Source of the DNA: a virus
Virus record (IMG/VR): IMGVR_UViG_3300037516_001048
Location: 1 to 55,647 of that record
Length of the DNA: 55,647 nucleotides
Reading direction: 5' to 3' (one strand)
Made by a program: the position numbers and the translations under genes. The notes below the pieces were generated by a model. That model worked only from the letters and a program-made list of their open reading frames with translations, was not told where the DNA came from and did no database searches. Every line of letters starts with the position of its first letter. Position 1 is the stretch's first letter. Below are positions 9,450-55,345 of this stretch, piece after piece.

Positions 9450-9466
9450 CCGGCCCCGTAACGGTG
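9450..9466 (+). repeat. Intercistronic hairpin, GGCCCCGTAACGGGGCC family
   Basis: CCGGCCCCGTAACGGTG, a shortened member of the repeat, directly follows the stop at 9445 and precedes the promoter at 9488. Confidence 0.5.
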
Positions 9467-13419: not shown

Positions 13420-13745
13420 TGACTGATGAAGAAAAAGCACTGGCACGGGAACAGGCCAAGAAATGGTTGGCCCCGGTCACCACACCGGGCAAAAAGGCCC
13501 CGAAACGGTGGCGACCGACCCCCTCCCAGAAACGCGCCCTACCGCCGTGCATCTATCTGGGACGCTACGTTGGAGGCACCCTGTTCTACCGGGTGCAGTG
13601 GCAGTCGCAACGAGTCGCCCGGCATGTCGGGTGTTATCTCACCCTCGAGGAGGCCGTCCGCAGATTGCATCTGTCACGGCCCCCTCGCCCCGCCGCCCCT
13701 GTCAATCCTCGACGTCGCCCAGTCGGCTCACGGGTTGGCCCTTGA
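13416..13745 (+). CDS. AP2-like basic DNA-binding protein (109 aa)
   Basis: After the duplicated N-terminal helix, a basic linker leads into residues about 45-90 (YVGGTLFYRVQWQSQRVARH then GCYLTLEEAVRRL). The pattern of three strands ending xxGxYxTxEEAxxxL is that of an AP2-type DNA-binding domain. It is the last gene of the rightward operon and its 3' end overlaps the 3' end of the convergent giant gene by 44 bases, with the Arg/Pro tail lying in the overlap. A regulator or partner of a homing-type nuclease is possible; no nuclease is fused. Confidence 0.6.
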   Translation: MMTDEEKALAREQAKKWLAPVTTPGKKAPKRWRPTPSQKRALPPCIYLGRYVGGTLFYRVQWQSQRVARHVGCYLTLEEAVRRLHLSRPPRPAAPVNPRRRPVGSRVGP

Positions 13746-22700: not shown

Positions 22701-25700
22701 CGCGGTACGGCGGGCGAGCAATCTCGCGGGCAATCGTCGCCTCCCAGGTGGACTTCAACTCTGCGTATGCTTTCGCCCTGACATCGTTGAAGGCTTCCTT
22801 CATCCAGCCCCAGCCGGTGTAGGCCTCCAACACACTCTTCTCTTCCGGGGTAGGGTTGCGGCCGTCCGCATCCAACTGCCGCAGCAGTTTCATCGCCTCA
22901 AAATTCCCCGCCCACTTTTGGCTATTCGTGCGGGGGGCCACCTTGCCCATTGGGTCGATGACGTGGTTCCGGTCCGCCGGGTTTTCCGGCTGGGGGACTA
23001 TGGGATGTAGGCCATCGCGTCCGGATGGATCTTCCCGTAGACCTCCCACAGGTTTCTCCGCTGCTCCGCGTTCAGGCGGTTTTGCCACGCCATCACTGTT
23101 TCCTCCGCTTCCAGTTCCGCGTCCGTCTGGTCCGTTGCCTCCCGGCTGTCCGGATCCAGCCGTTGTGCCTCCCGTTTGGAATTCAGCCGACCAGTCAAAA
23201 AGGTCGTTAGCGCCTCCTGGAGCATTCTTGGATCGCTTGCTATTTTTGCCCCCTGCCGGTGTTCCGACAGCTGCACCAGTGTTGCCAGGACGTCCATCGC
23301 TTCCAGATCCATTTCCTTGAGTTCCATAATTCACACCATACCCGCCGGAAGATGCGAAGTCAAATAAGTCAGAAATCGCCGCCACCGTGGGCAGTTTCCC
23401 AGCGGGCACCTCCGCCTTCAGCGCCTTCGCAAAGGCCGGTTTGCTGCGTTTCGTCTTGGCAGGCAGGCTGTCCGCCCATTCGCCGAACAGGTCAGCGGAG
23501 CTTAACGGTCCGGCGGGAGCGGCAGGCCGTAGAGCGGAGCGTCGTCCGTTATCGGGAACATTTCCTTGATCTTCATTCCCTTGTGTGCTTTCACTAGCGC
23601 CTTTGTCTCCGGCCTGATTGGTTTCAAGGGCCGGGTGGCCGTAGTCGTAGGAGGCAAGTAGTTGGGTTTTGTTGGTGGCGTATTCATTGAGATTGGATCT
23701 TTCCTGCGTGAAATAATACTGCTCACCACGGTCTTTCGCAACCGGGGAGACGCTGGACTCCACCACGATGGACCGGAGACCTTGGCCCCCATCCTCGTAG
23801 ACATTGTCCCCAAACATGATCCCTCTCACCTCATAGGAATCCACCAGCGGCAGGTATTCCCGGAAGTTCATATGAAAGCCTTTATGCCCCCACAGAGTGC
23901 CGCCAGCAGGCACCAGGCGTTTACTCTTCAATCCCCGATCCACTGACCGGTTCATAGCCTCCCATGGATCGATCACGATCCCCCGGAGGTGCATTTCATA
24001 CCCTAGTCCCTTGATTTGCTCCATCAGGGGAATCACCTGCGGGGCGTGGCTCAGAGTAGCGTCCCAGATCAGGTTCACATGGTAGGGCAGTGCCAGCACC
24101 GCAACCACGACATCGTTGAAGATTTTCTGACTCTCGACGTGTACTGTCCCTGCCGCCCGACTGTCCCCCCGTGCCAGCATTTCCTGCATTTCTGGGATGA
24201 GCATTTTGATGTCATCCGCCGTCAGCGTCAATATTCCGTCGCCCGTAGCGATTTCCCCCGTCGATTGCATTTCCCTGATAAACGTGGACTTGCCCGCAGC
24301 CGGACCGCCGCCGGTGAACAGCACCTTACCCCGCCCATTCGCCCGCGCTTTTTCAGCCCGGTCCAGATACAGATCAATGATCGCTTCATGCAACTCATCG
24401 CGGGTGTATTCTTTCCCCGGCTCCAAGTAGTCCAGCAGGTAGTTCGGAATCACCTCCCCATCATCATCCTTGATCATCGTTGGCTGAATCACGGCGGTGG
24501 CATGAGTCAGCACAAACACCCCATCCACCTCCCGCGCCGTGGCCGGTGGTTTCGGCCCCGTGGGTTCGGGTAGTTTCGGCAGTTGCCACTCCGCATCAAA
24601 TTCCAGCGTCACGTCCAGCATCTTGATCGTCGCCAGAATCCGTTTATCCACCACCCCAGCGAACGCATCCAAATTGTCCGGCCCGATTTGCGAAGGCAGC
24701 ACCGCCGAGGACAGCGCCGCCGTCGCCAGCGCGTGCCGGTTCTCCCGCGTCTCCGTGGTCGCCGGATCCACCGCCTTCTGCCACAGCTGCTCCCGCGTCG
24801 CAGGCTCACCCCCGAACATATCCACCTGCGCCGGATTCCCCAGTTGAGCCACCCCTTCCACGTAGTTGGAGATCACCTCCTCCATCCGCGCTTGGTTGGT
24901 CCGGTTGGCGATCAGGAACTGCATCAGTTCCGTGACCATGGGATTCTCAAACACATCCGTCTGACTCTCCAGTCCCTGATAGACCGCAGACGACGGGGTC
25001 TTGGCAGATTTATCACGCAGGGCCACCGCGATCCGTTGTGCCGCCGCCCCCAAATCCACCGAGATGTCCCGTGGGTGCAGATTACCGGCCTTGCCTTCCG
25101 CCTTCATCCAGCCCATCCCAGCGGCCATGGTCAGCAGAGCCGCCGTGATCTTCTTGGCTCCAACACCCGTCGAAGCGGCCATCCGCGCCAGCGCCGCCCG
25201 GCCCTCCGCGTCCAGCCCATAGGCGGAGGCGAAAATGCCCATCCGCATCCGGCTAGCCAGTTCCGGCCCCGTCAGGTTGGCTTCGTTGGTACCGCCCGCA
25301 TCGATCACCTGAGCCACGTAGGCCGTCCGGAACGCCTCATTCTGTTTGGCCTCCAGATCAAAATTAGGATCCAGCAGGGTCAGCACCTGACGCGCCGGTC
25401 CCGCCAGTCGTTGGGCATCCTGCCCGGCCAGTTCGGTGGCGTTGGTCCGCATCGCCACTCCCTCATTACTGCCCTGTGAGAATTTGATTACCGTCTCCCG
25501 GTCGGTAGGTTCCAGCACCCGCACCAGTACCGGCTCCTTCATCGCCATCACGTCCTCCGGCGTCAGGCCGAACCGGGCCGCATTCTTCGCCAGCGCCGCT
25601 TTGTATTTCGCGGCAGTCGGGAAGCCCTCACTGTAGGCCATCGCCACCCCATTGAACCGCCCGTTGCCCACAATCACCTGACCGTTGGCATCCACCACTG

Positions 25701-28700
25701 GTGCCCCGAGATCCGGAGTGGTCGCTGGCACGTTCGTGTCAGGGAAGAACGCCGCCTGGTCGAAATCAAGCTCGCGGGCGATGTTCTGGCTCTGCTTCTG
25801 GTATTCCGGCAGGGACCGGTCCCGTGGTTGCAGCGCCTGATCATACCCAGTCGATGGCTGGCCACGGAAATCATGGGACGGCAGGAGAGTAGACTGTTCG
25901 CGCAGCGCGAAGACCGCCTTCAGCTTGACGCCATGCTGCGTGATCGTGGTGGCTCCTGCCGTTTCGCCTTGTGCTTCCGTTTGCGCTGGCACCATGGGCA
26001 CGTCCCGTGATTCCGGCACGCTGGGTCCAGCGCTTTGCTTCCCGTCAGAGGATGGCGTTTGGTTTTGCTCATTGGTTGTAGATTGGTTTTGCGCCACGCC
26101 GCCGAGGAACTCCCTCATCCGCCCCTCGATGAGCTTCACCGTGTCCTCGATTTGGGCGATGGTTTCAGGCGCAGCCCCAGCCTTCGCCAACTGCTTCTGC
26201 AAGTTTCGCAGGTAGCCCAGCAGCGCATTCACCGCACGCCGCAGGGAGGCCTTCAGGTCCGTCCCGGCCTGTTCGGTCGTTACCAGTTTCCCGTCCAGTT
26301 TCCACCCCTCTTGAGAGATAGCCATCCGCCCCTGCACGATCATCCTCAGGAACTCATGCCCCAGATTCCGGGGCTCCTTGCTGCTCCGGTTATAGGCGTC
26401 CCGTACCACCCGCTGCACTTTCGCGGGCAGGCTGTTATACAGGCCAGCCGCATCCAGCTTGCCACCCTTCTCCAGTTCCAATGCGGCCGAGTGGATCACC
26501 TCCTCGATCACAGCCAGCCGCGCCCATTCCTTGGTGTTCTGTTTTGTGTTTTCCGCCGTCTTGGCTAGAGCCCCGAAATCCAGTTCCAGTGCCCGGTCGG
26601 TGGAGTCGATTTGCAGCCCGCCCCCCAGCGTATTCTCCTTTACGCGGAATCCACCAGGGAATGCCCCCGCCCACTTCTTCGCCTCCATCTCCAGCGCCTT
26701 GGCCATTTCCTTGTTCCGCGCCACCCGTTCCGGCGTGGCCTTCAAGCCGCGGGCTTCCCCGGCCGCTGTGATGGCGTCGGCAAAACTCCCACCCTTGGCA
26801 GGCTCCGCCGTTGGTGCGTCCGGGGCCGTCTGTGGCGCGGCGACCGGCACCTCCACCGCATCCCGCACCATCCCTTGGCCGGTGGCCGCAACTTGAGCGA
26901 TGGCCGCAGTCCGGGATTCCGCCGTCACCCTCACCGGGGCGTCCACCCCATCAATCTCCACGTCCCACTGACGGCCCTGTTTCGGGGCCGTAGGGGCAGC
27001 AGTCGGTGCCGCAGTCGTTGCCGCAGCAGGTGCCGGTGCCGCCGTTGGATCAGGTGCCGCCGTTGGGGCCTGCGCTGCCATCGCCGCCTGGGCAGCGTCT
27101 TGCGCGGCCTGCTGCAACACTGCATCACGCCGTTGCACCTCCCCCGCCGTGATCAGCGCCGCCGCCGCCGGGAATACCCGCTTCGTCCGGTCGATCAGTC
27201 CTTGCCCCAGAATCAACTGCCCGGCCTCCATCGTCACGCGGGGCACGCCGTCCGGCGAGGGGTTGGGGTCCTCGCCGACCACAATCTCAGCGGCAGGACC
27301 ACGGGCCAGTCCGAGCGTGGCCAGTTGACCGTTGTCCAGCGTCGCCGCCCGGCCCGTGGCCACCGCCACCACCGCCCGTGCCGTGGCCACCGCCAGTACG
27401 TGCTCCGGAGTCCCCACAGCCATCGTCAGTCCCGTGACTGGATCCATTACGGGGCCAGCCAACTGCTCCTCCAGACCTACCAAATTCTGTACGCCGGTCA
27501 GCACCGCCTCCCGGCGATCTTTTTCCAGTTGGGCCATCCCGCGCAGCGCCTCCCGCGCCGTCACCCGGTCACCCTTGTTGCGGGCCTCCTCAGCCACCAG
27601 TCCCAGCGCCTCTATCTGAGCCGTGATCCCCGGCACCGTCCCAAATTGCTCCAGCGCCGGCACTGGCCCGAGCGCCGTGGCCATCTTCTGAGGATCCACC
27701 CCAGCCATTTCCGCGAGCCCTTCCTCCGTGGCCGTCATCACCGCCTCCGATTTAGCGATCTCCGCCTTCAGTGCATTCCCGGCTTGATTCAACTGCCACG
27801 CTTCTTTCAACGGACGCATCGCTTTGGCCGTCATCCGCGCCGCACCTCCGGCCCCGCCGAACGCGCCACCACCGATCAACTCACCGATGGCGTTCTCCCA
27901 GATTTCAGTCTGCTCTGCTGCCGTGTAACCCGCTGACAAGTCCGTTTGATTGGAGATACGCGCAGCATAGACCCCAAGAATCCCCTGCATAAAACCCGTG
28001 GCACCCTCCGTGGCCGGGTTCTTGGCCGCTTTCAGGGCACCCATGCCCACTTCCTTCATGAAGGACCGCATCCCCTTATCAGCCACGGCCCTGAGTTCCT
28101 TGGCCGGACGGCCCACCAACTTGCTAATCAACCCACTTTCCATACCGGTCAGGGCATCGAGTGCCGCCGCCGGAGCACCCAATATCAGACTGGCCGCGAT
28201 GGAGCGGTCCACCTTGTCAGGGTCATTCACCAACTGCGCCGGGGTCATGCTCCCCAGGGTGCTTTGCAGGTATTCCCCGCCGTTCCCACGGAAGGAGGAA
28301 CCGAACGCACCCCACTTCGCGACGTTGGCCGCTGACTGCTTCCGCATGATGTCAAAGAGCGGACCCTTCCCCCCTCCCTTGATTTCCGACTTCAGCAGCA
28401 TCAGGACCCGGCTTTCCACCAGCACCGTCGCCATCTCAGAGGTCAGCTTGCGCTTCACCATCAAGTCCGCAGCCTCCTTGGCGATCAGTTTTTTCACCGC
28501 CGTTTTGCCCATCAGACCCGCCACGCCACCACCTACGGTGCCGGGACCAGGGGCCACCGCGCTACCAATCGCCGCGCCGGCCACCGTCGTCACCACCGTC
28601 TCCCCCAAATCGAAGACCATATTGGAAACGGTCTTGCCCACGTAATGCAGGGTATCAGACAGGCTCTCGATCTCCCCGAAGGTATCCACCACACTACCAC

Positions 28701-30945
28701 GCTCCTCCGCCCGCTTCATGTGCTCCGCACTTTGTGCGTGCAGGCTGAGGAATTCCTCGTCATCCCCAGCCAGATGGTTCATCGCTGCGCGCATCATCAG
28801 CCATGTGCCGGTGTATTGGTCCCAGCCGTCAGCGATCTCTGACTTCGCCACATTTAATCCGCCGGTCGCCCGCAGCTGTTCTGATTTGAGGTTTTTCGTG
28901 GTCGCCGTCAACTCCTTGTCGACCGCCCCGGTGTTGAACAGCGGCTGATTGCCGTACTCCTTGATGTACCCCTTCAAAGCCGTCATCCGCGCCGCGGCGC
29001 TGCTGGCATCCTGCTGGCTCAGTTTCCCGGCGGCGTCCAGGGTCACTGCCATGTCAGGCACCGGCTTCACCTCGATTCCCGCCGCCTTGTAGGCATCCAC
29101 CACCTTGTTCATGGGCACGGCCCCCTGCCAAGCCAGGTCCCGCACCCGGCGAAGGTCACCCTGCATCCGTTCCGCTGCCTTGTCATACACGACCGCAGTT
29201 TCAGCCGACCGTTTCTCAAACATGGCCGACATCTCCTCCGGCGAAAGATTCCGCGCCGACCCCGCCGAGGCAATGTCGGTCTGGTGCGCCGCCATCGCCC
29301 CCTTGATCAGCCCCTGCAACTCCCGGCCCCGGTTGGTGATCTCCGCCACCGCAGCATACCCGGCCTCCCGCTCCTGCCGCACATCCGCCACCGGCTTCCC
29401 TCCGGCCTCCTCATTCCCCAGCAGTCGGCGAGTGTTGCCCTCACCTTCCGCACGGGCTTCCACCATGGTCTGCCAGTCGGGCCGCAGGAACACATCCTTG
29501 CCAGGGTTTTGAGCGATGGCCGTTTGCAGGTCCGCCACATTCTTGGCTTCCAAGGTCCCTGCACGGAATTTCGGCGTGAAGGCGTAGTCCAGCGCCACTT
29601 TCGGGGCCGCAGGATCAGCCGCCGCCACCCCAGTGGCCGAGTCGTTAGCCGCCGCCTTCGCCGCTTGCTCTTCCTTCACAGCATCCACCGCTTTCACCTG
29701 CTCATCACGCAGTCCACCGGCATACCGGTTGTGATCGTCGATCGTTGTTCCCAGTGCGTCAAACTTCGCCTTCAACCCCTGCGACCGCAGCAGTAGCGAT
29801 TCCCGTTGCCGGATGATATCCGGGGCCTCCGCCGCCGTATACCCAGCCTCCCCCACCGCCTTCAGCGCCAGAGCCTCCGCGTTCAGTGCCTCATCCTCGA
29901 TCTTGAGCTCCGCCTTCCGCGCATCCATCTTCTGGAGGCTCTCAGCGAGGTACCGCGAGCGCACCGCGTTCTGTTCCTCCGGTGTTTTCCCGGCCAGGCT
30001 CGCCTTGTTAAAGGTATCACTCGACTGGGTCGCCAGACCGGCTTCCTCCACACCGATTTCTGAAATTCGCTTCTCCCGGCTATCCCGCTCCGCCTGTCGC
30101 GTGATCAAAAGCTCATCTGCCGGAGTGGCCGTGCCGCCCGACTTCCGCACCCGCGCATCCTCCAACTGGGTGGGATTCGGGGCGTTCATGTCAGGGGCCG
30201 TCAGCTCCGCCCGCAGCTTGGCCTGCTCACTGGCCAGCCCAGTCTTTTTCCGTGTCCGCAGCGCCGCCGTGGATGCCTCCCGGACCTTGGCATCAGGAGA
30301 TAGGACCCCTTCCTCCGGATCGATGGCGTCCCACTTGGCGTTGGCGTTCTGCCGGTAGATGTATTTGTCGTTCGGGTCTTTGGGATTGCCCCCGATTGGC
30401 GCCTCCGCATCCAAGAAGGATTGCTTCATCTCCCCAGCCTTCCGCTCCACCTTGTAGGCGCGGCCAGTTGAATCCCACTTGGTGGGACCGTCGATATCTT
30501 TGACGACGGGTTTCCCGGTCATGGGGTCCTTGGCTTCCACCACGGTGCCGTCCGGATTCTTGTGATAGCCGAGCCCCGCCGCGTCCATCTCCACGGCCTT
30601 CATGTCCTGCACCGCGTCGAAGTTAAGTTTGTCGACACGCGCCTGCTCCTTGGCATTCGCCTTCGCGACTACCGCCTCATGCGCCGACTGCCGGACCTGT
30701 TGACGCTGCTCCGTAGCTTTGTCCTGGTCATACTTGTCCCACGCACGCTCCTCCCCACCATCATAGGTCTTGGCGAGACCGGAAGGTAGGCGACGTGGAT
30801 CCACCCCGGACGGCGCACGCACCGCAGGGGCTTGAGGTGCCGCAGGGGCTGGGGGCTCCGTTACAGAGCCATCCTCCGGCGGGACCACCGGAGGGATAGG
30901 GGTGGCAGGAGATAGGACAACGCGGCGCGTAGGTTGCAGAGACAT
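13702..30945 (-). CDS. Giant polyvalent protein: ParB-like/zeta-kinase/methyltransferase/SNF2 helicase
   Basis: A single 5747-residue frame. In order: Ala/Lys/Glu-rich helical region (1-770); hydrophobic Gly/Ala segment (about 775-815, TVVTTVAGAAIGSAVAPGPG), possibly membrane-penetrating; a zincin-like remnant (IEEVIHS, about 1478); a DdrB-type ParB-like domain (about 1665-2045, DANGQVIVGNGR near 1750); a zeta-toxin-like P-loop kinase (about 2200-2390, GGGPAAGKST near 2210); a disordered linker with three DLF motifs (about 2400-2665); an adenine methyltransferase (MEPGGGIGHFIG near 2835, SNVPF near 2910); an SNF2/DarB-like helicase (HGVGSGKT near 3607, VDEAH near 3770, QRNGRIIRQG near 4132); and an LPD38-like C-terminus (from about 5175, SGPQTQVVNIVGN). 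P1 DarB and DdrB are ejected antirestriction proteins; the same role is inferred here. Confidence 0.88.
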   Translation of the reverse strand: MSLQPTRRVVLSPATPIPPVVPPEDGSVTEPPAPAAPQAPAVRAPSGVDPRRLPSGLAKTYDGGEERAWDKYDQDKATEQRQQVRQSAHEAVVAKANAKEQARVDKLNFDAVQDMKAVEMDAAGLGYHKNPDGTVVEAKDPMTGKPVVKDIDGPTKWDSTGRAYKVERKAGEMKQSFLDAEAPIGGNPKDPNDKYIYRQNANAKWDAIDPEEGVLSPDAKVREASTAALRTRKKTGLASEQAKLRAELTAPDMNAPNPTQLEDARVRKSGGTATPADELLITRQAERDSREKRISEIGVEEAGLATQSSDTFNKASLAGKTPEEQNAVRSRYLAESLQKMDARKAELKIEDEALNAEALALKAVGEAGYTAAEAPDIIRQRESLLLRSQGLKAKFDALGTTIDDHNRYAGGLRDEQVKAVDAVKEEQAAKAAANDSATGVAAADPAAPKVALDYAFTPKFRAGTLEAKNVADLQTAIAQNPGKDVFLRPDWQTMVEARAEGEGNTRRLLGNEEAGGKPVADVRQEREAGYAAVAEITNRGRELQGLIKGAMAAHQTDIASAGSARNLSPEEMSAMFEKRSAETAVVYDKAAERMQGDLRRVRDLAWQGAVPMNKVVDAYKAAGIEVKPVPDMAVTLDAAGKLSQQDASSAAARMTALKGYIKEYGNQPLFNTGAVDKELTATTKNLKSEQLRATGGLNVAKSEIADGWDQYTGTWLMMRAAMNHLAGDDEEFLSLHAQSAEHMKRAEERGSVVDTFGEIESLSDTLHYVGKTVSNMVFDLGETVVTTVAGAAIGSAVAPGPGTVGGGVAGLMGKTAVKKLIAKEAADLMVKRKLTSEMATVLVESRVLMLLKSEIKGGGKGPLFDIMRKQSAANVAKWGAFGSSFRGNGGEYLQSTLGSMTPAQLVNDPDKVDRSIAASLILGAPAAALDALTGMESGLISKLVGRPAKELRAVADKGMRSFMKEVGMGALKAAKNPATEGATGFMQGILGVYAARISNQTDLSAGYTAAEQTEIWENAIGELIGGGAFGGAGGAARMTAKAMRPLKEAWQLNQAGNALKAEIAKSEAVMTATEEGLAEMAGVDPQKMATALGPVPALEQFGTVPGITAQIEALGLVAEEARNKGDRVTAREALRGMAQLEKDRREAVLTGVQNLVGLEEQLAGPVMDPVTGLTMAVGTPEHVLAVATARAVVAVATGRAATLDNGQLATLGLARGPAAEIVVGEDPNPSPDGVPRVTMEAGQLILGQGLIDRTKRVFPAAAALITAGEVQRRDAVLQQAAQDAAQAAMAAQAPTAAPDPTAAPAPAAATTAAPTAAPTAPKQGRQWDVEIDGVDAPVRVTAESRTAAIAQVAATGQGMVRDAVEVPVAAPQTAPDAPTAEPAKGGSFADAITAAGEARGLKATPERVARNKEMAKALEMEAKKWAGAFPGGFRVKENTLGGGLQIDSTDRALELDFGALAKTAENTKQNTKEWARLAVIEEVIHSAALELEKGGKLDAAGLYNSLPAKVQRVVRDAYNRSSKEPRNLGHEFLRMIVQGRMAISQEGWKLDGKLVTTEQAGTDLKASLRRAVNALLGYLRNLQKQLAKAGAAPETIAQIEDTVKLIEGRMREFLGGVAQNQSTTNEQNQTPSSDGKQSAGPSVPESRDVPMVPAQTEAQGETAGATTITQHGVKLKAVFALREQSTLLPSHDFRGQPSTGYDQALQPRDRSLPEYQKQSQNIARELDFDQAAFFPDTNVPATTPDLGAPVVDANGQVIVGNGRFNGVAMAYSEGFPTAAKYKAALAKNAARFGLTPEDVMAMKEPVLVRVLEPTDRETVIKFSQGSNEGVAMRTNATELAGQDAQRLAGPARQVLTLLDPNFDLEAKQNEAFRTAYVAQVIDAGGTNEANLTGPELASRMRMGIFASAYGLDAEGRAALARMAASTGVGAKKITAALLTMAAGMGWMKAEGKAGNLHPRDISVDLGAAAQRIAVALRDKSAKTPSSAVYQGLESQTDVFENPMVTELMQFLIANRTNQARMEEVISNYVEGVAQLGNPAQVDMFGGEPATREQLWQKAVDPATTETRENRHALATAALSSAVLPSQIGPDNLDAFAGVVDKRILATIKMLDVTLEFDAEWQLPKLPEPTGPKPPATAREVDGVFVLTHATAVIQPTMIKDDDGEVIPNYLLDYLEPGKEYTRDELHEAIIDLYLDRAEKARANGRGKVLFTGGGPAAGKSTFIREMQSTGEIATGDGILTLTADDIKMLIPEMQEMLARGDSRAAGTVHVESQKIFNDVVVAVLALPYHVNLIWDATLSHAPQVIPLMEQIKGLGYEMHLRGIVIDPWEAMNRSVDRGLKSKRLVPAGGTLWGHKGFHMNFREYLPLVDSYEVRGIMFGDNVYEDGGQGLRSIVVESSVSPVAKDRGEQYYFTQERSNLNEYATNKTQLLASYDYGHPALETNQAGDKGASESTQGNEDQGNVPDNGRRSALRPAAPAGPLSSADLFGEWADSLPAKTKRSKPAFAKALKAEVPAGKLPTVAAISDLFDFASSGGYGVNYGTQGNGSGSDGRPGNTGAAVGTPAGGKNSKRSKNAPGGANDLFDWSAEFQTGGTTAGSGQPGGNGPDGRGTGSGGNSDGVAKPPERGAAEKPVGGLREDPSGRDGLHPIVPQPENPADRNHVIDPMGKVAPRTNSQKWAGNFEAMKLLRQLDADGRNPTPEEKSVLEAYTGWGWMKEAFNDVRAKAYAELKSTWEATIAREIARPPYRESYDRSPARSTDWQQRARENDPEKAQTLLSWQATYGQHYDRLRAELTDKEFRSAAKSVRNAHFTTPSVIGSMWKAVARLGFKGGRAMEPGGGIGHFIGVQPPSMAERTRWEATELDDVTARILSKLYPQARVNGMMPAPGREVSGMGFQDSRIPNNSLDLLISNVPFAKEGPGKAKSEFGQDFNLHNYFFARALAKVKPGGLVVFITSSGTMESQRAQRAYLNGKAELVASWRLPNDAFAENAGTEVVTDVIMLRKPDGKQVMAPEPWMEKMQVGRDNVMSRRPVDKTRPWQKTTVDLHTWFSDIEPDWNPTSVEMATAWRPWMDGGRPKTGKKWDAVVKAFRERPDSSDSLEFSAPIRVNEYYARHPENVLGRHALQGSMYSAGEYTVQSMGSLDEQLAAAVERLPENILGDAATTGWDAVAAERDDKIDSYVERDGIVYQVTAEGLEPVEWNENETLDKAKRTAAKKKMAIFRQWAKLRDAAVEMVNLEVNPASMDTDLDAARARLNTAYNGVLAYFGPLGVRRNNKYRFLEDDPQYALLEALEEESMVTNERGEVAYRYKKADIFRQRIIPVLEAPTTAASLEEAVSVSMAWQGSVNPRYVADLTGTSEPEARMALLEGGHVYEDTSSGQLMTADEYLSGPVAVRLREAEAAAKDNPDYARNVEALRNALPPRRMISEASINVGARWIPDAVYTAYMAHLGVKNGAVKYVKERNHFESAGRGGLPEWETGDWSAFDTLDAILNNRKLLVTSYNRVLRQSVVDSELTAQLESKALEMADDFRQWVRTTDTELADPENDGVMVPIPALTENIFNEKVNGITPPKFVGDWVTLPGQSGVIWLKPFRKAVIARLLTQGRGMMAHGVGSGKTFNQIALAMELRRLGKARKPVIVVQNSTINQFAKSFRQAYPQAKLLVATPRSYSAKARARFTARMATGDWDAIIMTHSNLEQIPNSQASVDAYFARESDELDAAISAADDTESQSRLQAARDKLLEKRTKMIARLGARQDNVLDWEQIGVDALIVDEAHAFKNAPVVTNRGRDVKNIPSTGEGSDKAVSMMLKTHNVRERMKGKGVFFATGTPISNTMAEAYVMLRYIAPDMLEANGIVNFDDFAAQYGTVVSQTESTWDGSIKVVDRFTKFVNGPQFIRLIRSVFDVAMGNESLGLDVPSIAGGKAEQVVVPVTQANQAFNEWIVNEVAPRWKAIGRKEIDEDPRLTAIPIMSLQAGMAAALDPRLIHDNAPDYPGSKVNVAIKRALEIYRSGDANKTAQVMFSDLFNSFRLGVLGEFAGNPFADMGRNEGAFNLGDDIKAKLIAGGMKPEEVVVVTTEKDEKLTAILDAVNEGKVRVIIGSTARLGVGVNIQERLAMVHHLMPPRDFKPAMMEQRNGRIIRQGNLHAEWRDAAFARVVGTAAGTPFAGTTGAKRAKAAKEWLTENDKDGAIRTEADAAAKIFDIGIIEYAVQRSTDSVVYSMMAAKQGMVAQSLSGESIGNEFDDPTDEIQMGFNEMAAQAMGDPLMIRQVMLDRDLRQLRNSYNGWQRQGASRAADIRRIAASITYSEGLLNRVDREAATYGKLFLEADGKPVYKFDGKTIDTGAKDGKIINPLDLWLAGAAGSMAMQGDKQTTLAMEVNGRPFEVTAKLKDNALVGVVQVPGSTEYKDWYAGGQSLVLGIRSLVSGIEDRPANSRENIAFLTDRLAELRKVDAGSQEFPQIDKLRALETEYALLRITMATRNETPTGAATEATGPEMGTLADGMGRGGMLAPLSAAALDAIGGDSLASGVSAGNHLGVNQGLAEQDADRLAIFEQNIDEILKLATGAKTRVLGLRVMVEHNNPVPQVKPGDALAPSSVWNDGEPTKRKLAGTSTIGIKLDRDSIREALFHLGVTGGRDLPGFRYGYYYGAQVVLVTGTSSRIGSDFGERVIRDARVLGAWNKSEGEARSSYLTTPVYLAPLSAAALQSASFDDALRGAGVDLDELDSLMDRADNESSGSRKTGNPDLSLGAGTNSYTTFGDPVIMGVDEYRNATVQEETFDQWRADAVEMLRANYDGTVRRLVDIGLSGGQLTPELTQAAQIIVEQESRMPMNPARKRTLQALVYAYRQAGTEQARGLAARRDPFKTPEERHREFLAKQIFTPPAETRKKLEAAGSAAERQRILGADAQRIARIEAEFAKMGVTLDDLFSGGIQLSLAKAKIIGETAAGLASDKHRRAAVLLKGGTQSALDIGKAVGLTPQEVLAVKDHMDRQLTKAMEARLARAIAAASSSLQVAAMAGDEFMDVDFARMVGMTEAERAAEIQKLVQQMGYGIPVKQLGKRKIVKRKRLYQPPTAQSGMSGEEYLSQPMGRDGRGTQPRLGQMGTPDNSIAPGPGKVWDRPALAQNELDLGLQDEVSILIGADLADAEDVVRLARVTQAAHGGAMDMLQEYWINNILSGPQTQVVNIVGNSAFAGVELTVQRGMEALWNLVIQDDKSASFGEFGAMRQALLPGLVRGMRLFSKSWRTETDWFAHEALNAQLDLFETGPKGEGRATAISGTKGKVIRIPGRALMATDGFFKGLIGQMEAAAQAYRIAKAEGLSGDAMTKRMNQLLYTPGSQAWQLAVQKAQELTFQEDLPENLKPLQKWKNSNRLLGFVVPFIRTPYNIFRHGIRKSPLGAANLIWQLGKHGMVKLSGGRLELATAASPQMIKWLAEQTLAMAALALLKGAAEGDDDDEKKWLLITGSQPADFAERDLQERTAGGAYVIRIGGVRIPYGRVEPFATVLGSTVDALRISKGGGDVADKFGRVLGSLQQAAMDKTFLSGLAALFDTMKQPGKLADKGQRAVMTALVPNLIRQPLRNMDSMVRDGSTADWYYQLAPFGAGAESRVNTATGVDKEKTGNALTRILLPALVKQDGVEPSDIVLRQWNAANPGKEAWAPGTPDRTHELQVDGKTVRVKLNAGAYKQLSGRSAALARQSLQGLNLKPTQDDVDRIKKAYTDGRRRAWGELKGQPVSRLGDVED
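22998..23327 (-). CDS. Overprinted ORF inside giant gene (109 aa)
   Basis: Same strand as the giant gene but a different frame, opposite its residues about 2539-2649. It starts at ATG 23327, one codon after an in-frame TGA, and stops at TAG. The product is a normal-looking acidic helical protein (MELKEMDLEAMDVLATLVQL at the start, EQRRNLWEVYGKIHPDAMAY near the end). By hand count 77 of 109 third positions are G/C (71%), against about 38% for the giant frame over the same bases, where the product is Gly/Asn/Ser-rich. The hidden frame therefore carries the codon bias. No Shine-Dalgarno is evident. Confidence 0.55.
   Translation of the reverse strand: MELKEMDLEAMDVLATLVQLSEHRQGAKIASDPRMLQEALTTFLTGRLNSKREAQRLDPDSREATDQTDAELEAEETVMAWQNRLNAEQRRNLWEVYGKIHPDAMAYIP
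23502..23687 (-). CDS. Second overprinted ORF inside giant gene (61 aa)
   Basis: In the same alternative frame as the 109-residue ORF and just upstream of it, opposite giant residues about 2419-2481. It starts MNTPPTKPNYLPPTTTATRP at ATG 23687 and ends MKIKEMFPITDDAPLYGLPL plus PPDR. In its last 40 codons about 72% of third positions are G/C, against about 45% in the giant frame. The first 20 codons are Pro/Thr-rich and there the giant frame is the better one. A real start further in (for example Met at KGMKIKEM) is possible. Confidence 0.42.
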   Translation of the reverse strand: MNTPPTKPNYLPPTTTATRPLKPIRPETKALVKAHKGMKIKEMFPITDDAPLYGLPLPPDR

Positions 30946-47290: not shown

Positions 47291-47427
47291 CCAGCCCGAT
47301 GCCCAGCGAGAAGACGGCGGACCTCCGGGAGGAGTACCGCGTCCTGAAAAGCCTGGCCACCCTGCCGGAACGCAACCTGTCCGCCGCCCTCGCCGTCCTC
47401 AGCGAGCGCGGCGGCGACGACGACTAG
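47167..47427 (+). CDS. Small helical protein (86 aa), overlaps nuclease gene by 124 bases
   Basis: ATG 47167 in another frame than the nuclease gives MDKRTADKAASLSRALLENQ followed by an acidic helical protein with GFILPWITARQETIKEDLTS. Its reading of the shared bases looks like normal coding sequence, unlike the Pro/Ser-rich tail of the nuclease. The stop overlaps the stop of the convergent primase gene by 3 bases. The family is unknown; it may be a small packaging or virion accessory protein. Confidence 0.6.
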   Translation: MDKRTADKAASLSRALLENQGWSGFILPWITARQETIKEDLTSPMPSEKTADLREEYRVLKSLATLPERNLSAALAVLSERGGDDD

Positions 47428-49550
47428 CGTTTTAGCACGCGCCAAGCTCCACGGACTCCGTCAATACGGACCTGATTGTCAGCCAACGCCGCCTCCAGTG
47501 CGACCTTGCCCAGACTTATGCTGACGCCAAATGACTCCGCCAGGCGCTTTACCAGATCCTCTTTTGAGATGCCGCCCATTGGCACGGCGTCCCGCACCAC
47601 AGACGGCGGTATCTTCACTTTCCCCGGTGCCGCCTTGCCGTCTGATGCCAGCCGCTCCTTCCACTCATCAAGGCTAAAATCTTCATCCCACTCATACAGA
47701 CCGTCCTCCCGGAGGACGATCCCGAACGGCTTGAACTGCTTGCCGTTATTACACTTCCCGCAGGCCACGATCAGCTTGTCCGTATCCTCCGGGTCGAGTG
47801 GTGCGATATTGATCTGGCTCCGGACCTTGTTGTACAGGCCCTTGCTCCCGCGCCCGAATGATGAGGCATCCCAGCCCACCGCCCGAGATGCCCCCTCTTT
47901 GCCCGTGAGCGCGTGGTGGACAAAGAGGATCACCCGCTTGGTGTTCCCCTCTTGGATCACCGCCCGCAACCGGCCGCATAGCGCCTTCATATGTTCGTCA
48001 GTGTTCAGGTCCGCGCTGCTAAAATCCCCCAACGGATCCATCACCACACCATCAGGATCGATGTCGGCTACGGCCTTTCTGATCTCCTCCAAATCCTTCG
48101 GATCGGTGGTATCCATATCGAAGTCGGAATTCTTGAGTAGGGTCGTCGAGTAAATCCGTCGCGCCACGAACTCAAATTGGGAAGCACTCAGGCCCATGCT
48201 GTTTTTCAGCGTCATGATTTCATGCTTCAGGCGGTTCTTGCGATTCTCTCCCTGCAAGAATAACCATTTTTTCCCGTAGGCGGCAGGGTGGACGACCATC
48301 CCGCAGAAATTCATTCCCAGAATCATATGGGCCACCAACTGGAGGGTCCACCGACTTTTCCCGAGCCCGCCCTGCCCTAGAATACTGCAAGCCTCACCCT
48401 CCGTGATGACGTTTTCTCCCACCCACGCTGCGTCAGGGTCAAGCTCCATCTGGTCGATCTCCCAGAGGGAATGAATCGACAGTTTGGTCGAGCGTTCCTG
48501 TTTCGGGACCATGATGGCCTCCTTCGCCAGCTTGAGCGCCTCAGCACCATCCGCCCGCACCCAGTCATTCAAATCCTTGTACTGCTCCGGAGGGTAGGCC
48601 CATTCCACCCCCGGCCACACACTCGCCAGATCCAGCTTCCACTTATGATTCCCGTGTGGTGCCTCGCCCTCCGCCAATGGCTTGTCGTTTTGTTGAAAAC
48701 CCACGGCAGAGCCACGCAAGTAGTGAGGAGCCAGCGACCTGGCGTTACCGGCACCCCGCGAAATGCAGACCTTCAGAGCATCCCGCATCTGGGGATGTAA
48801 ATGGCACTCACAGCCCAACATCATGGTGAAGGCGTCCCACTGGCTTTCAAACGCCACCACCATATCGCGGCCTTCGCCCCAGATCAGCGGCGTGTTTTTC
48901 GTGCCGGTGGGGAACATCCAGTCGCCGTCATCCCTCCGATAATGACACGACACCACCTTGCCTCCAGCATCCATCACCGGGCAGGCAATCTTCCCCTGAT
49001 ACAACCCGAGCAGCTTCTCTGCCCACAACCAATCCACAAACTCCACTGGCCAGCCACGCCACTCCGCCACCCCCGCCCGCCGCTCCGGCAGGAACGCATC
49101 CACGCAGGCCTGCCAATCAAACGCCACCGGCCCCGTCGCCTTCCCGAGTAGGGTAGCCAGCGATGCCTTCGCGGTCGTTAGTAAATCTTGAGTGGGCGGG
49201 GGTCCAGCGGGCACCGCGACTGATGGCGCAGCCCCTCGACTGTACGCCGGTCGCGGAGCTTCCTCCCGCTGGACCCCAGCCAACTCCAGAAATCGTTTGG
49301 CCGCATCCTCCTTGGAACAGCCCTCAAAATCGGCAATGAAATCTACCTCATCCCACGTCGTCCCGCTCGCCCGGTCGATCCCACGCCACCGTCCATTTCG
49401 CTCCACCACGGAAAACGATGGGTGTTTGTCAGGCCGCAGCGGGCTGCAAATCGGCTTGTTCCCCTCAGGCACGGCCACCCCCAACCGGCGGAGCAGATCG
49501 GGAAATGGCAGGGAGTTACGGGCACGGGCGAGGTCATCAGAGAAGGACAT
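47424..49550 (-). CDS. Primase / RepA-like replicative helicase fusion
   Basis: A 708-residue replication protein. The N-terminus has a reduced CHC2-like region (KPICSPLRPDKHPSFSVVER; most zinc ligands missing), then a Toprim-like segment (about 230, VAFESQWDAFTMM). The C-terminal half is a RecA-fold ATPase of the RepA type: Walker A ILGQGGLGKSRW near residue 389, Walker B DGVVMDPLGDF near 498, then FVHHALTGKEG. A C-terminal winged-helix-like segment follows. It would load at the origin, unwind DNA and prime. The start ATG 49550 is behind the C-rich leader TGTCCTGCCCCTCCC. Confidence 0.8.
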   Translation of the reverse strand: MSFSDDLARARNSLPFPDLLRRLGVAVPEGNKPICSPLRPDKHPSFSVVERNGRWRGIDRASGTTWDEVDFIADFEGCSKEDAAKRFLELAGVQREEAPRPAYSRGAAPSVAVPAGPPPTQDLLTTAKASLATLLGKATGPVAFDWQACVDAFLPERRAGVAEWRGWPVEFVDWLWAEKLLGLYQGKIACPVMDAGGKVVSCHYRRDDGDWMFPTGTKNTPLIWGEGRDMVVAFESQWDAFTMMLGCECHLHPQMRDALKVCISRGAGNARSLAPHYLRGSAVGFQQNDKPLAEGEAPHGNHKWKLDLASVWPGVEWAYPPEQYKDLNDWVRADGAEALKLAKEAIMVPKQERSTKLSIHSLWEIDQMELDPDAAWVGENVITEGEACSILGQGGLGKSRWTLQLVAHMILGMNFCGMVVHPAAYGKKWLFLQGENRKNRLKHEIMTLKNSMGLSASQFEFVARRIYSTTLLKNSDFDMDTTDPKDLEEIRKAVADIDPDGVVMDPLGDFSSADLNTDEHMKALCGRLRAVIQEGNTKRVILFVHHALTGKEGASRAVGWDASSFGRGSKGLYNKVRSQINIAPLDPEDTDKLIVACGKCNNGKQFKPFGIVLREDGLYEWDEDFSLDEWKERLASDGKAAPGKVKIPPSVVRDAVPMGGISKEDLVKRLAESFGVSISLGKVALEAALADNQVRIDGVRGAWRVLKR

Positions 49551-49814: not shown

Positions 49815-51200
49815 TTAGCGCCTGCCTTTGGCGAACATCCGGGACATCAGCGTCGATGCCGCAGCCCGGCTCAGTCCCTCCGGCGGGATGACCACGCGGA
49901 ACCGGCGGAGCATGGCCACCTGTTTGGCCGTGGCCATGAGCGTGTTATGATCAACGGACGGCACTGCCTCCACTGCGACGTGGTGCCGCTTGCAGAAATC
50001 CGCCAGGGTCACGGTGTAGGCCTTCCGCCGGGCCTCCGCCTTCGTCTTGCGGATGAGAGCCAGTTCGCGGGCAATCCGGAGGGATTCCGCCACTCCGGCC
50101 GCGAGCTCTTCGAGATTGAGCGGCTTGTCCACCACCCTCGATGCACAGATATAACCCATCTCCGGATCGTCCGAGAATAGTGATGCCGGGCGGGCATAGT
50201 GCTGCTTGGTCTGCCACAATAAATCCAGCAGGAGCATATTGGCCTTCCCGGAAAATAGCCGGGTGCCCCGCCCCACGATCTGCTGATAGAGCGACGACGA
50301 CTTGATGGGCCGCAGCGGCACCACGCAGTCGACGCACGGCTCATCCCATCCCTCCGTCAGCACCGCGGCGTTACACAGATACTGGATCCGCCCGGCCCTG
50401 AAATCGGCCATCACCGCTGTCCGGTCCATCTCCCCATCGACGTGGCCAGCCGAAACCCCGCACTCCCGCAGGAGATCCGCGAATCGTTTGGAGGTATCGA
50501 TCAGTGGCAGGAACACCACCACCGAGCGCCGGCCTACGGATGCCTTCACTACCGCCCCGGCAATCTCCCGCAGCAGTGGGGTAATCAGCGCGTCCGCCTG
50601 CTCCGGCGAGAGCTCCCCGGAAACCTTTGGCAGATCCACCAGCACCGGCAGCGATTGAACCAGAATATCACACAAGAACCCCTGACTGATTAGTTCCGGG
50701 AGCGTCACCTCATAGGCGATCCGGTCCCACCACTCCGAGAGTTTCTGCCGGTCCATCCGAAACGGCGTGGCCGTCACCCCGAGGTATTCCCCAGCGGAGA
50801 GGGATTCCAAGAATCGTTTCCATTTCGGGGCCATAGAGTGATGAGCTTCGTCCACAATGACCAAATCAAAATGCCGGTGCAGCCGCCGCCGGTCCCCCCA
50901 CAGGCTGGCCACCGAGCCCACCACCAACTGGTCATCAGGATCCGACTCCAGTCCCGCCATCTCGATCCCCGGCTCCAGCCCGATGGCCCTGCCCTTGTCC
51001 ACGGCCTGCATCACCAGATCCTCGCGGTGCGCCACCACCAGCACCGACCGCCCGGCAGCGAGCGCCCGCCGGGCATATTCGATGAAGACCACCGTCTTGC
51101 CGCCGCCGGTCGCCATCAGCAGCAGTTGGCGCGTGTACCCGGCAACCCGGCCTTCCTCCAGCGCCGCCAGGGCACTGGCTTGGTAGGGTCGCAGGGTCAT
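49815..51200 (-). CDS. SF2 DNA helicase (DEAH type, UvsW/RecQ-like position)
   Basis: A 461-residue superfamily 2 helicase: Q-like start LRPYQASALAALEEG, Walker A MATGGGKT (29-36), DEAH 117-120 in LVIVDEAHHSM, motif III GVTATPFRMD, motif V LTEGWDEPCVD and motif VI YQQIVGRGTRLF. Length and motif spacing fit phage branch-migration or restriction-type helicases that remodel recombination forks. It is coupled as ATGA to the gene upstream. No nuclease or zinc domain follows. Confidence 0.88.
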   Translation of the reverse strand: MTLRPYQASALAALEEGRVAGYTRQLLLMATGGGKTVVFIEYARRALAAGRSVLVVAHREDLVMQAVDKGRAIGLEPGIEMAGLESDPDDQLVVGSVASLWGDRRRLHRHFDLVIVDEAHHSMAPKWKRFLESLSAGEYLGVTATPFRMDRQKLSEWWDRIAYEVTLPELISQGFLCDILVQSLPVLVDLPKVSGELSPEQADALITPLLREIAGAVVKASVGRRSVVVFLPLIDTSKRFADLLRECGVSAGHVDGEMDRTAVMADFRAGRIQYLCNAAVLTEGWDEPCVDCVVPLRPIKSSSLYQQIVGRGTRLFSGKANMLLLDLLWQTKQHYARPASLFSDDPEMGYICASRVVDKPLNLEELAAGVAESLRIARELALIRKTKAEARRKAYTVTLADFCKRHHVAVEAVPSVDHNTLMATAKQVAMLRRFRVVIPPEGLSRAAASTLMSRMFAKGRR

Positions 51201-51440: not shown

Positions 51441-51947
51441 TCAGTACGGAGGCTTCACGGATTCGACAGTGGCCGTCGTTCCCGATGCGGGGCCGCTGCT
51501 CTTCAGGAGTGCGGAGGCGCGGTTGGTCAGGTTCATCCGCTTGAGCAGATCCTTACCGGCATTCGGCGCGAGCACCGGGGCCGACGCAGATTTGCCGTAG
51601 GGATTGAGCCACCGGACCCTCAGATATTCCTTGGTGCCATCTTCCGACGGCTCCATTTCGGCAACGATGCTGCACGTCTGATCAAGGAACAGGTCCGGCA
51701 GTTCAGCAATCTCTTCGAAGACTCCCCCGAAGCCGAACGTCTCATGGAGGGCCTTCGCGGTCCCCTCCCACGATTTGTCGGACAGCCAGCCGGTCCATGC
51801 GATGGTTTGCCCCGCTTGAGGGCCAGCAATCACCTGCATATTGACGCGGACGCCGAGGGTGCCCTTGGTGGATTGGAAGAGACCGTTGGAGGTATCTGAG
51901 ATGACGGAGCAATCGTAGTTGCCGGGGGTTTTGAGTTCGTTTGACAT
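51441..51947 (-). CDS. Putative ssDNA-binding protein, DUF669-like
   Basis: A 168-residue protein with a beta-barrel-like N-terminal half (GNYDCSVISDTSNGLFQSTK, TLGVRVNMQVIAGPQAGQTI, AWTGWLSDKSWEG) and a flexible Ser/Ala/Pro-rich C-terminus. The order Gly-x-Tyr, V..IAGPQAGQ and W..WLSDK is that of DUF669 proteins, proposed to be phage ssDNA-binding proteins and often next to Sak4 recombinases, as here. Start ATG 51947 follows the leader ACAACCCGAAAACACT. Confidence 0.65.
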   Translation of the reverse strand: MSNELKTPGNYDCSVISDTSNGLFQSTKGTLGVRVNMQVIAGPQAGQTIAWTGWLSDKSWEGTAKALHETFGFGGVFEEIAELPDLFLDQTCSIVAEMEPSEDGTKEYLRVRWLNPYGKSASAPVLAPNAGKDLLKRMNLTNRASALLKSSGPASGTTATVESVKPPY

Positions 51948-52055: not shown

Positions 52056-52970
52056 TCAGGCCGCTGGCTTGGCCAGTCCGGGGATTTCGTCCGCCTGGCG
52101 GAGCTCAAAGAAAGCGACCGCCTTCCGGAGACGGTCAGGCGTCAGGGTGGCGATGGATGCCAAGTGGGTCTTGCGCTCCGCATCAGTGAAATTGCTGGTG
52201 GACAGCAGACCCATCGCGTTAGCCTCCAAGGTGGGCCGGTGCAGGGCCTTCAACTCCTTGTCCAAGGCATCCATGGAGAATGGCAATTCAGCCGGCAGAC
52301 CGTAGCGGTTTTTCGCCTCCCACTCCGGGGACTTTTCCGTGTAGAGCTTCCGCTCCCCGCCCATCGCCGACCGCTCCTTTTTATCGCCCTTCTGGAACAA
52401 TTCATAGTTCGCGAACAGCACCATATCGGCCCAGCCAAGGATGATCGAATTAAACGCTTCGTTGCCCTTCAATACCCACGAATTGTATTCAACCCCGTCC
52501 GGGCGTTTAATTATTTTCGTGGTCACATGGCTGGTGATCCAGACCGCCACCAAGTGCTTCTGGTTGATTTGATCCAGCCGTTGCAGGACGCCCTCCAGCA
52601 GTTCCCGGCCCCGCTTGTAGCCCTTGCCATAGCCGCCGCCGTAGAGTTCCACGCTCTTGACCGTGCCCTCGCGACAAACCTCCGCGTAGATCAGGCTCTC
52701 CAAGGCATCGAGCGTATCCACCGCCAACGTCCGGAACGGCAGTGCCTTGGCCCCGATGGATTCATCGAGGAACCCAATCACTTCAGCATAGGTCGCCGGT
52801 TCAAACTGCGGAATGTATTCCATGCCGACCAATCCCTTTTCACAGGCGATCACGGCCGGCTGAAATGCCGAGCAAACGAAGGTTGTTTTTCCGATGCCGG
52901 GGACCCCGGCAATGATCCCCCGTGGAGGCAGGATCAGTTCTTTGGGAGCGAGTTTTGACAAGAATGACAT
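52056..52970 (-). CDS. Sak4-like RecA-family recombinase / AAA_24 ATPase
   Basis: A 304-residue P-loop protein: Walker A GIIAGVPGIGKTTF (about 18-31), a Walker B-like LAVDTLDALESLI near residue 88, then YGKGYKRGRELLEGVLQRLD and sensor strand LVAVWITSHV. This is the AAA_24 phage NTP-binding group, which includes the single-strand annealing protein Sak4. It is neighboured by DUF669-like, SF2 helicase and nuclease genes, a standard recombination module. The start ATG 52970 overlaps the previous stop by one base (TAATG). Confidence 0.8.
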   Translation of the reverse strand: MSFLSKLAPKELILPPRGIIAGVPGIGKTTFVCSAFQPAVIACEKGLVGMEYIPQFEPATYAEVIGFLDESIGAKALPFRTLAVDTLDALESLIYAEVCREGTVKSVELYGGGYGKGYKRGRELLEGVLQRLDQINQKHLVAVWITSHVTTKIIKRPDGVEYNSWVLKGNEAFNSIILGWADMVLFANYELFQKGDKKERSAMGGERKLYTEKSPEWEAKNRYGLPAELPFSMDALDKELKALHRPTLEANAMGLLSTSNFTDAERKTHLASIATLTPDRLRKAVAFFELRQADEIPGLAKPAA

Positions 52971-53495: not shown

Positions 53496-54290
53496 TTAAT
53501 ACGCCACCGGGAAGTCCTCCGTGGCATCCGACGCGGCCCGCCAGTGGATCCCTTTGATTTTCTTGCCACCACGGCGGAAATTCCAAGCCTTGATCAGCAG
53601 AGCGAGCATCGTGTTGTCTGGCAGTTTCGTATTGGCGACGGTGTTCCGGATGATCTTGTCCCGCAGGACCGCCACCGGATCACCAGCCTTGAGACCGATC
53701 CCCGTGTGCAGGTCCATGATGAATCGATCCGCCTCCAGCCGGGAGTGTTGGCTGAACACGTAGTGGGCTGCGGTCAGCCGGGCCGGTGAAATCATCCGTG
53801 GAAGTTTGCGCTTACAGAAGGTCACCGACTCACTCAGCCAGGGATGCTCCGCGAGGATACCTTCGATCTCGACCGTGGGGGGATGCTCCTTTGACATCAC
53901 CGTGCCGCGACCGATCTGCCACAGCACCACCAGCGATGCCCCGAGAACCGTAGTATTGAGGTGCCCCGCGATGGACAGCACATCAGATGCGCCACGGACC
54001 TTGCCGGAATCGATCGTCGCGAAGTACGCGCTATCGATCCCATATACCACCACTGACCACATCGCGACTCCCGTATCAACCACGGCCAGCAGTCGGTGCT
54101 GCCCGTCGAGAATCCCATCATCACTCAGGATGATCGACTCGCCATTGAGCCGGTAGGTACCCTCAGTCAAAGCTTTGACCACCTTGTTGTAGTTGACGAG
54201 ATTGACCGGGCGGTTGGTCTTTCGCATGGCCAGCCACCGTTTGGCCATGACTGGGGTGATTAGTGTGATGTGGACGTGTGGTTTTGTCAT
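53496..54290 (-). CDS. ParB-like (Srx/ParB superfamily) protein (264 aa)
   Basis: Starts MTKPHVHITLITPVMAKRWL at ATG 54290, overlapping the upstream stop as ATGA. A ParB-like active core is at residues 57-70 (DDGILDGQHRLLAV), with the GQHR box that binds CTP or nucleic acid in the ParB/Srx fold. The C-terminal 120 residues are helical with basic stretches. Phage proteins of this type lie in replication modules; a nuclease or DNA-mark reader role is more likely than partition, as no ParA is present. Confidence 0.78.
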   Translation of the reverse strand: MTKPHVHITLITPVMAKRWLAMRKTNRPVNLVNYNKVVKALTEGTYRLNGESIILSDDGILDGQHRLLAVVDTGVAMWSVVVYGIDSAYFATIDSGKVRGASDVLSIAGHLNTTVLGASLVVLWQIGRGTVMSKEHPPTVEIEGILAEHPWLSESVTFCKRKLPRMISPARLTAAHYVFSQHSRLEADRFIMDLHTGIGLKAGDPVAVLRDKIIRNTVANTKLPDNTMLALLIKAWNFRRGGKKIKGIHWRAASDATEDFPVAY

Positions 54291-55345
54291 TTTAGGGTGA
54301 GTTCGGGTTGATTGGTTGACCCCGTAACGGGGACGATGAGAGCCGTGAGCCAGGCCTCCAGCCGGTGGTGCCAGAGGGTGCCCCACCGCAGGGCCTCCGC
54401 CTCCTCACCCACCCGGCGGATGGGGTTCTCGTAGAGATGGTAGTGCAGCCGTGGACAGCACCGGTACGCCTTCATCCGGCTGTTGGTGAGCAGTTGCCGA
54501 CCGCTGCCGTCATCCTGCATATTCAATTCAGCGTGAGCCTGCGGGACCGTCGCATACAGGTCCGAGTCCGCCGGCACCGTGCCCGCGCATTTCTCCCAAA
54601 ACTGGCACCGGCTCCATGCATCGCAGTGGGAGGGATTCCGGGGCCACAGGTTCTTCTGCCGAGCGTAGAGCAACTGCTGCCCCACCGCCCACGAATCTGC
54701 CATGTACTCCTCCAGATCATTCGCCAGCCGGGGAATCTCCCGAGCTTGGAAATATTTGGCAGGTTCCGCCCGCATCACCTCCGCCACCCGGTCCCCGTAT
54801 TCCTCCGCCGTCTCCGGCCGGGTTTGCAGAGTGAACCCCTGCGCCGTGTCCCCGCTCTCCCGCCATTTCTTGCCGTCCTTGGTCCGCTGCCGGACGCCTT
54901 CCGCATCATGCACGATCTTCACTCCGGCCTCATCCGTCAGCGGCACCCCGGCTGGGCGGCACCCCGGTTTTCTGGTGACATCGTAGAATATAGGACCAAT
55001 CCCTGATTCCGGATGCAGTACCTGTGACGCGATCACATACTTGCTGATCTGCGTGTCCATCTTCAGGGCCGGCCAGTAATCCGAGCCCGGTGCGATGTCG
55101 CCCGCCGTCGTCTTGTGCTCGCCCACCGAGATCAGGCCGGTGGTCTTGTGCCGCAGCAACAGGTCGATCTTCCCGGCCTCCACGAAACTGCGGGACTCCC
55201 CGCCCGTCTCCGGGTTCTTGAGGCTGAACGCGAACTCCTGTTCGACCGCAACCACTTCGTAGGTCCGCCGGATGTATTCGCCCGTGGTGGCGACCCAGCG
55301 AGGGAATTGAGCGGCAATCGCCGCAAGGATGTATTCGTCTTCCAT
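54287..55345 (-). CDS. Cas4/RecB-like PD-(D/E)XK nuclease, circularly permuted order
   Basis: A 352-residue nuclease with AGKIDLLLR (Asp61) and VGEHKTT (E76, K78) as the metal site, then SDYWPALKMDTQISKYV and DVTRKPGCRP. Cys241, 247 and 253 (CDAWSRCQFWEKC) and Cys296/297 (RCCPRLHYHLY) could bind a 4Fe-4S cluster. The block NSRMKAYRCCPRLHYHLYEN to RWGTLWHHRLEAWL (residues 288-332) is normally the N-terminus of this phage family but is here at the C-terminus, while the frame opens with what is normally the middle (EDEYILAAIAAQFPRW). It would act in recombination or end processing. Confidence 0.82.
   Translation of the reverse strand: MEDEYILAAIAAQFPRWVATTGEYIRRTYEVVAVEQEFAFSLKNPETGGESRSFVEAGKIDLLLRHKTTGLISVGEHKTTAGDIAPGSDYWPALKMDTQISKYVIASQVLHPESGIGPIFYDVTRKPGCRPAGVPLTDEAGVKIVHDAEGVRQRTKDGKKWRESGDTAQGFTLQTRPETAEEYGDRVAEVMRAEPAKYFQAREIPRLANDLEEYMADSWAVGQQLLYARQKNLWPRNPSHCDAWSRCQFWEKCAGTVPADSDLYATVPQAHAELNMQDDGSGRQLLTNSRMKAYRCCPRLHYHLYENPIRRVGEEAEALRWGTLWHHRLEAWLTALIVPVTGSTNQPELTLK
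54318..54334 (-). repeat. GGCCCCGTAACGGGGCC-family hairpin inside coding end
   Basis: GACCCCGTAACGGGGAC (either strand) lies in the last codons of the nuclease gene, where it encodes VPVTG, followed by a leader-like CAACCAATCAACCCG that encodes STNQPE. The gene end therefore looks built from a hairpin-plus-leader module. Confidence 0.55.

Follow-up and report, generated by a model that had tools for sequence, protein, structure and literature searches.

Cas4 and the other Fe–S nucleases of the pfam12705/PDDEXK_1 family, such as Pcal_0546 and SSO0001, are RecB-like proteins with a motif II Asp, a motif III ExK and one plus three cysteines. A single N-terminal Cys joins three C-terminal ones in binding one cluster in canonical Cas4 (PMC4176176). 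The phage exonucleases of PHROG 1218 have the same D..ExK and four-Cys set, and their canonical relatives share a Sak4 neighbourhood. We divide the chain into three blocks: block A extends from CxR to LEAW, block B continues to the D strand, and block C runs from ExK to the three Cys. The known Cas4/PDDEXK_1 proteins have the canonical chain order, and the PHROG 1218 profile reads A-B-C. Natural circular permutation is already known; DNA methyltransferases, swaposin and the HD domain fused to Cas10 record the same type of event in different folds, and permutation by duplication accounts for some natural permutants (PMC3320104, PMC3150331). Our literature search turned up no account of circular permutation in the PD-(D/E)XK RecB/Cas4-like phage nuclease family, although an earlier report is possible, and a 2005 survey of PD-(D/E)XK proteins does not mention permutation.

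Here, we describe a 352-aa nuclease (P0001) encoded on a 55,647-base viral contig from IMG/VR without end repeats, the whole of which is referred to as the window. The protein matches the PHROG 1218 profile (5.2e-22) but has the block order B-C-A, and unlike the known Cas4/PDDEXK_1 proteins it adjoins recombination and replication genes. It is very probably an active, naturally permuted RecB/Cas4-type four-Cys PD-(D/E)XK exonuclease that prepares DNA ends for a phage Sak4 annealing module. The Tunturiibacter psychrotolerans phages Tunturi_1 and Tunturi_2 (PP887698, PP885685) also carry a B-C-A protein, with Sak4 and SSB genes after it; that protein is about 33% identical to the nuclease and is annotated just as 'exonuclease'. 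The gene contains the following features:

54287..55345, minus strand: predicted circularly permuted PD-(D/E)XK (RecB/Cas4-like) exonuclease, 352 aa, block order B-C-A, from profile matches, rotation test and AlphaFold2
54506..55345, minus strand: blocks B and C, residues 1–280, with the D strand, the ExK strand, a family insert with DGKKWRE and the three-Cys cluster, equivalent to canonical profile positions 95–343
55163..55165, minus strand: codon of catalytic Asp61, motif II, conserved in 32/32 rows of the B-C-A alignment
55112..55120, minus strand: catalytic E76-x-K78, motif III, conserved in 32/32 rows
54587..54625, minus strand: the three C-terminal-type Fe–S cysteines C241, C247 and C253, conserved in 32/32 rows
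54347..54499, minus strand: block A, residues 283–333, LLTNSR...CCPRLHYHLY...GTLWHHRLEAWLT, C-terminal here and N-terminal in canonical relatives, carrying the fourth Fe–S cysteine, C297

The initial annotation had given the position, strand and length of this ORF, and it had placed the catalytic residues D61, E76 and K78, the three clustered Cys and the CPR cysteine where we find them; all seven residues are identical across the aligned B-C-A relatives. It had also put the four Cys within about 55 residues. They are clustered, but their span is 57 residues (241–297). The segment RCCPRLHYHLY...GTLWHHRLEAWL corresponds to residues 295–332. The motif II Asp and motif III (D/E)xK place the protein among the PD-(D/E)XK nucleases, and its cysteines follow the Cas4-type pattern, with one in the CxR helix and three in the C-terminal-type cluster; together the four would bind a putative Fe–S cluster. 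The PDDEXK_1 score lies above the curated cut-off of 22 bits both for the native chain (30.5 bits) and after rotation (36.4 bits). The usual chain order, with the CxR/GxxxHxxLE block first, is not kept, but order is no condition of homology. The 352-aa protein would be expected to have nuclease activity, and for it the label 'Cas4' should be taken as 'Cas4/RecB-like'.

The gene begins 302 bases from the end of the linear contig, where a contig-end artefact or an assembly chimera might have produced the unusual order in this record. The ORF is intact, however, with conserved residues throughout, and the same order recurs in about 31 non-redundant relatives from many metagenomes, a Chthoniobacterales MAG and the two isolated Tunturiibacter phages. 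The closest relative, L002 (74% identical, same order), is interior to a different contig of 63 kb, so a contig-end artefact is ruled out, and we give essentially no weight to an artefactual origin of the order.

All 352 rotations of the nuclease were scored against a profile built from 15 canonical-order relatives. The best cut is at residue 280, on a plateau spanning residues 274–285 that includes the swap point at residue 283 proposed initially. The best single-domain score rises from 301.6 bits for the native chain to 350.0 bits for this rotation (median rotation, 289.5 bits), and the best match extends from profile positions 95–343 to positions 6–343 of 346. A canonical control, L029, scores highest unrotated (544 bits). 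The matches to Pfam PDDEXK_1 and phrog_1218 fall in swapped stretches on the native chain and become a single stretch after rotation. In a profile–profile comparison, residues 2–280 of the B-C-A family align to the canonical family with E=1.3e-99, and the alignment ends at the start of block A. The B-C-A ends map to canonical profile positions ~57–74, in the loop behind the LEAW helix; the initial annotation had located the new N-terminus at the end of that loop. Its central proposal, that the chain is a circular permutant of the canonical RecB/Cas4-like phage nuclease, is shown to hold at the sequence level by the rotation test, the swapped profile matches and the existence of homologues in both orders, and a confident predicted fold is consistent with it.

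A different reading of the chain would make block A an unrelated or duplicated accessory domain, appended to a core that functions without the canonical N-terminal block. The D, E, K and three Cys do all lie on the core alone, but the first 50 positions of PDDEXK_1 align with block A, as does the N-terminal part of phrog_1218 after rotation, and neither the Cys nor the GxxxH of this block varies across the B-C-A alignment. Moreover, block A was never found twice at one locus, and the rotated chain yields one collinear match. We consider an accessory domain highly improbable and retain circular permutation as the explanation of the order.

Relatives were gathered from scans of IMG/VR and GTDB contigs, and the profile of each block was searched in all translated frames of all loci. 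After removal of near-copies, the 98 non-redundant relatives comprise 52 with the canonical order A-B-C, 31 with B-C-A and 15 with C-A-B, while the block-profile scan found none of the three non-cyclic orders among them and no second copy of any block at any locus. Homologues of different orders are 40–50% identical over the shared part. Neither the B-C-A nor the canonical set varies at the catalytic D, E and K or at the four Cys, and the full-length C-A-B proteins have all of these residues too. Because homologues occur in a different cyclic order with one copy of each block, the nuclease can be classed as a natural circular permutant. The search for homologues in either order, suggested initially, recovered both orders and C-A-B in addition; this second permutation, and the sharing of the permuted order by many phages, had been missed. 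The initial annotation had also held that the permutation would fall if the same order were the family norm. B-C-A is the norm within one clade, but family-wide the canonical order is commoner (52/98); the curated profiles and the published Cas4 structures have it, and a root placed with a distant phage nuclease outgroup falls on it. Separately, a bacterial MAG carries the three blocks in canonical order but in different frames (L039:4512-5620), apparently a decayed prophage gene.

The C-A-B form is represented by these loci:

L108:4983-6044, an example of the C-A-B order
L033, L096, L098, L104, L106, L109, L111, L112, L115, L142 and L147, further C-A-B members

These proteins begin with the ExK strand (residues like MKVYLWETKTTSED), and their conserved end is the D strand (...SRTFSLGGRVDAIVE), such that ExK precedes D in the chain. 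The ends map to canonical profile positions 133–140, in the stretch that joins the catalytic D strand to the ExK strand. In 14/14 aligned rows the D and the four Cys are unchanged, and E-x-K is present in the 12/12 rows that reach that site. L033, L096, L108 and their relatives share blocks, catalytic residues and Sak4 neighbourhood with the 352-aa nuclease and differ in having their new ends between the D and ExK strands. An AlphaFold2 model of a C-A-B protein (14 rows; pLDDT 50.7, pTM 0.26) was set aside. A known enzyme family thus has two permuted architectures of which we found no mention in the literature, and C-A-B reverses the order of the catalytic motifs. Profile searches list permuted nucleases as two partial matches, and C-A-B breaks the D...ExK motif order used in annotation, so permuted nucleases are probably under-called.

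In a careful 40-protein tree, C-A-B forms one clade (100/100), and a 100/99 branch separates it from the main B-C-A clade, which is grouped with five canonical proteins. Separate origins of B-C-A and C-A-B, two in number, are well supported by this phylogeny. When distant canonical phage nucleases, an outgroup with long branches, are used for rooting, the root of the family falls among canonical proteins. L020, also B-C-A, is nested among canonical proteins (99/95), and its cut is slightly different, with the linker helix kept at the C-terminus, the opposite terminus from the main B-C-A clade:

L020:335-1414 and L021: B-C-A order nested among canonical relatives; tail encoded by the RBS/start region of the downstream gene

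The L020 lineage is probably a third origin. A further origin, represented by Tunturi_2 (L139), is possible; its branch is too long to place, and the Tunturi_2 Sak4 groups with canonical phages.

All permuted forms could instead go back to a single duplicated ancestor, cut down at different places. The C-to-A fusion is common to B-C-A and C-A-B, as such an ancestor would predict, and constraint tests on quick trees do not reject a single B-C-A clade (p = 0.199 and 0.553); on a 97-row quick-search tree the constrained tree outscored the free tree, which makes the origin of L020 undecidable there. The 40-protein tree does reject a single B-C-A clade (p = 0.0245, or 0.0126 with Sak4 added), and the distance between the C-A-B and main B-C-A clades, the position of L020 and its oppositely placed linker helix all argue against a common duplicated ancestor, which we regard as unlikely. 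Separate origins remain our preferred reading. It is possible, though somewhat doubtful when taken as a whole, that the family has been permuted repeatedly, at least three times, with ends opened after the LEAW helix or between the catalytic strands (ExK before D), that tandem duplications arise readily around the exonuclease/annealase pair, and that moved termini alter how the nuclease meets Sak4 or DNA. The surprise lies in the recurrence of permutation within one small enzyme family. Three rotations with the same gene neighbourhood, about 40–50% identity and unchanged catalytic residues amount to a natural experiment on the origin and tolerance of permutation, and the question of how permutations arise and are tolerated becomes testable in related proteins.

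For the B-C-A form, the ancestor would have had the usual order A-B-C. Its old C-terminus, past the three Cys, would have been fused by a short linker to the old N-terminus before CxR, and new ends would have opened in the loop behind the GxxxHxxLEAW helix. The most likely route would be a tandem duplication whose two ends were then trimmed, as in the permutation-by-duplication model for natural circular permutants (PMC3320104). We infer this route, since the duplicated intermediates A-B-C-A-B-C or A-B-C-A were not found among the fetched loci. The permutation would be tolerated because the Fe–S cluster, bound by one block A Cys and three block C Cys, holds the old ends together; with the N-terminal and C-terminal Cys of Cas4 on one cluster, the old ends could be joined.

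The end of the chain may retain a trace of the trimming:

54290..54334, minus strand: non-conserved tail, residues 338–352, with codons in a hairpin copy between the genes and in the leader of the gene that follows
54320..54332, no strand assigned: hairpin CCCCGTAACGGGG, a member of a repeated palindrome family in the genome, encoding residues 338–342
53496..54290, minus strand: next gene (phrog_5931), with its ATG overlapping the nuclease stop codon (ATGA)

The initial annotation had derived the C-terminus from a repeat hairpin and a leader sequence, and this origin is borne out by the hairpin copy and by the last residues, which come from the leader of the adjoining gene. Relatives lack this tail; L002 ends in a different one. 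In parallel, the tail of L020 runs into the RBS and start of its downstream gene, and both tails would fit deletion of a surplus B and C copy up to the intergenic region. The hairpin CCCCGTTACGGGG is part of a repeat: with one mismatch at most allowed, the genome has seven copies, where 0.39 would be expected (0/100 shuffles). Palindromes around CCCCGTNACGGGG occur at window positions 9454, 9793, 10185, 39931, 54320 and others, and are probably in part terminator-like hairpins. Rfam has no match in the window, which leaves a permuted intron or RNA-processing explanation without support, and an NCBIfam search returned no match.

AlphaFold2 predicts a confident fold for the nuclease from 32 permuted relatives (pLDDT 91.3, pTM 0.83); block A lies mostly at a pLDDT of about 90–95, and only the last ten residues fall below 50. 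The high pLDDT of this block and the overall pTM support a predicted placement of the C-terminal block A in the canonical N-terminal site. Foldseek neighbours in the PDB are the nuclease domains of AdnA, AddAB and RecB, together with RecE, MGME1, EXO5 and SSO0001 (Cas4), with a weak best E-value of 2.5e-3. These alignments reach 4–5 Å over only about 106–127 columns and about 20 Å when forced longer, and such partial or distorted sequence-order alignments are expected of a permuted chain. The top match among the viral models of BFVD, A0A6J5NSY1, is named PD-(D/E)XK and aligns at full length (TM 0.71, 20% identity), so it probably has the same permuted order. No PDB relative emerged from B-C-A sequence-profile searches, and the canonical-family profile gave weak PDB matches to Cas4 SSO0001 and UvrD-type nuclease domains.

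Downstream of the nuclease are genes for Sak4, helicase and primase:

52056..52970, minus strand: Sak4-like ssDNA annealing protein/AAA_24 (phrog_124, PF13479), the predicted functional partner
51441..51947, minus strand: possible ssDNA-binding protein, with no family match above threshold, in the position of the SSB beside Sak4 in Tunturi_2
49815..51200, minus strand: DNA helicase (phrog_16)
47424..49550, minus strand: primase/helicase-like protein

A Sak4 homologue is present at 64/64 non-redundant loci, covering all three orders, and an SSB-like gene at 57. Because the nuclease lies near Sak4 in every order, it most likely resects DNA ends, providing single strands for Sak4 in annealing recombination. 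Elsewhere in the window, positions 13702–30945 (minus strand) hold a 5747-aa ORF for a giant polyvalent phage protein that combines ddrB-like ParB, zeta-toxin-like kinase and SNF2/helicase domains, and positions 3722–4363 (minus strand) encode a serine recombinase/DNA invertase (phrog_125).
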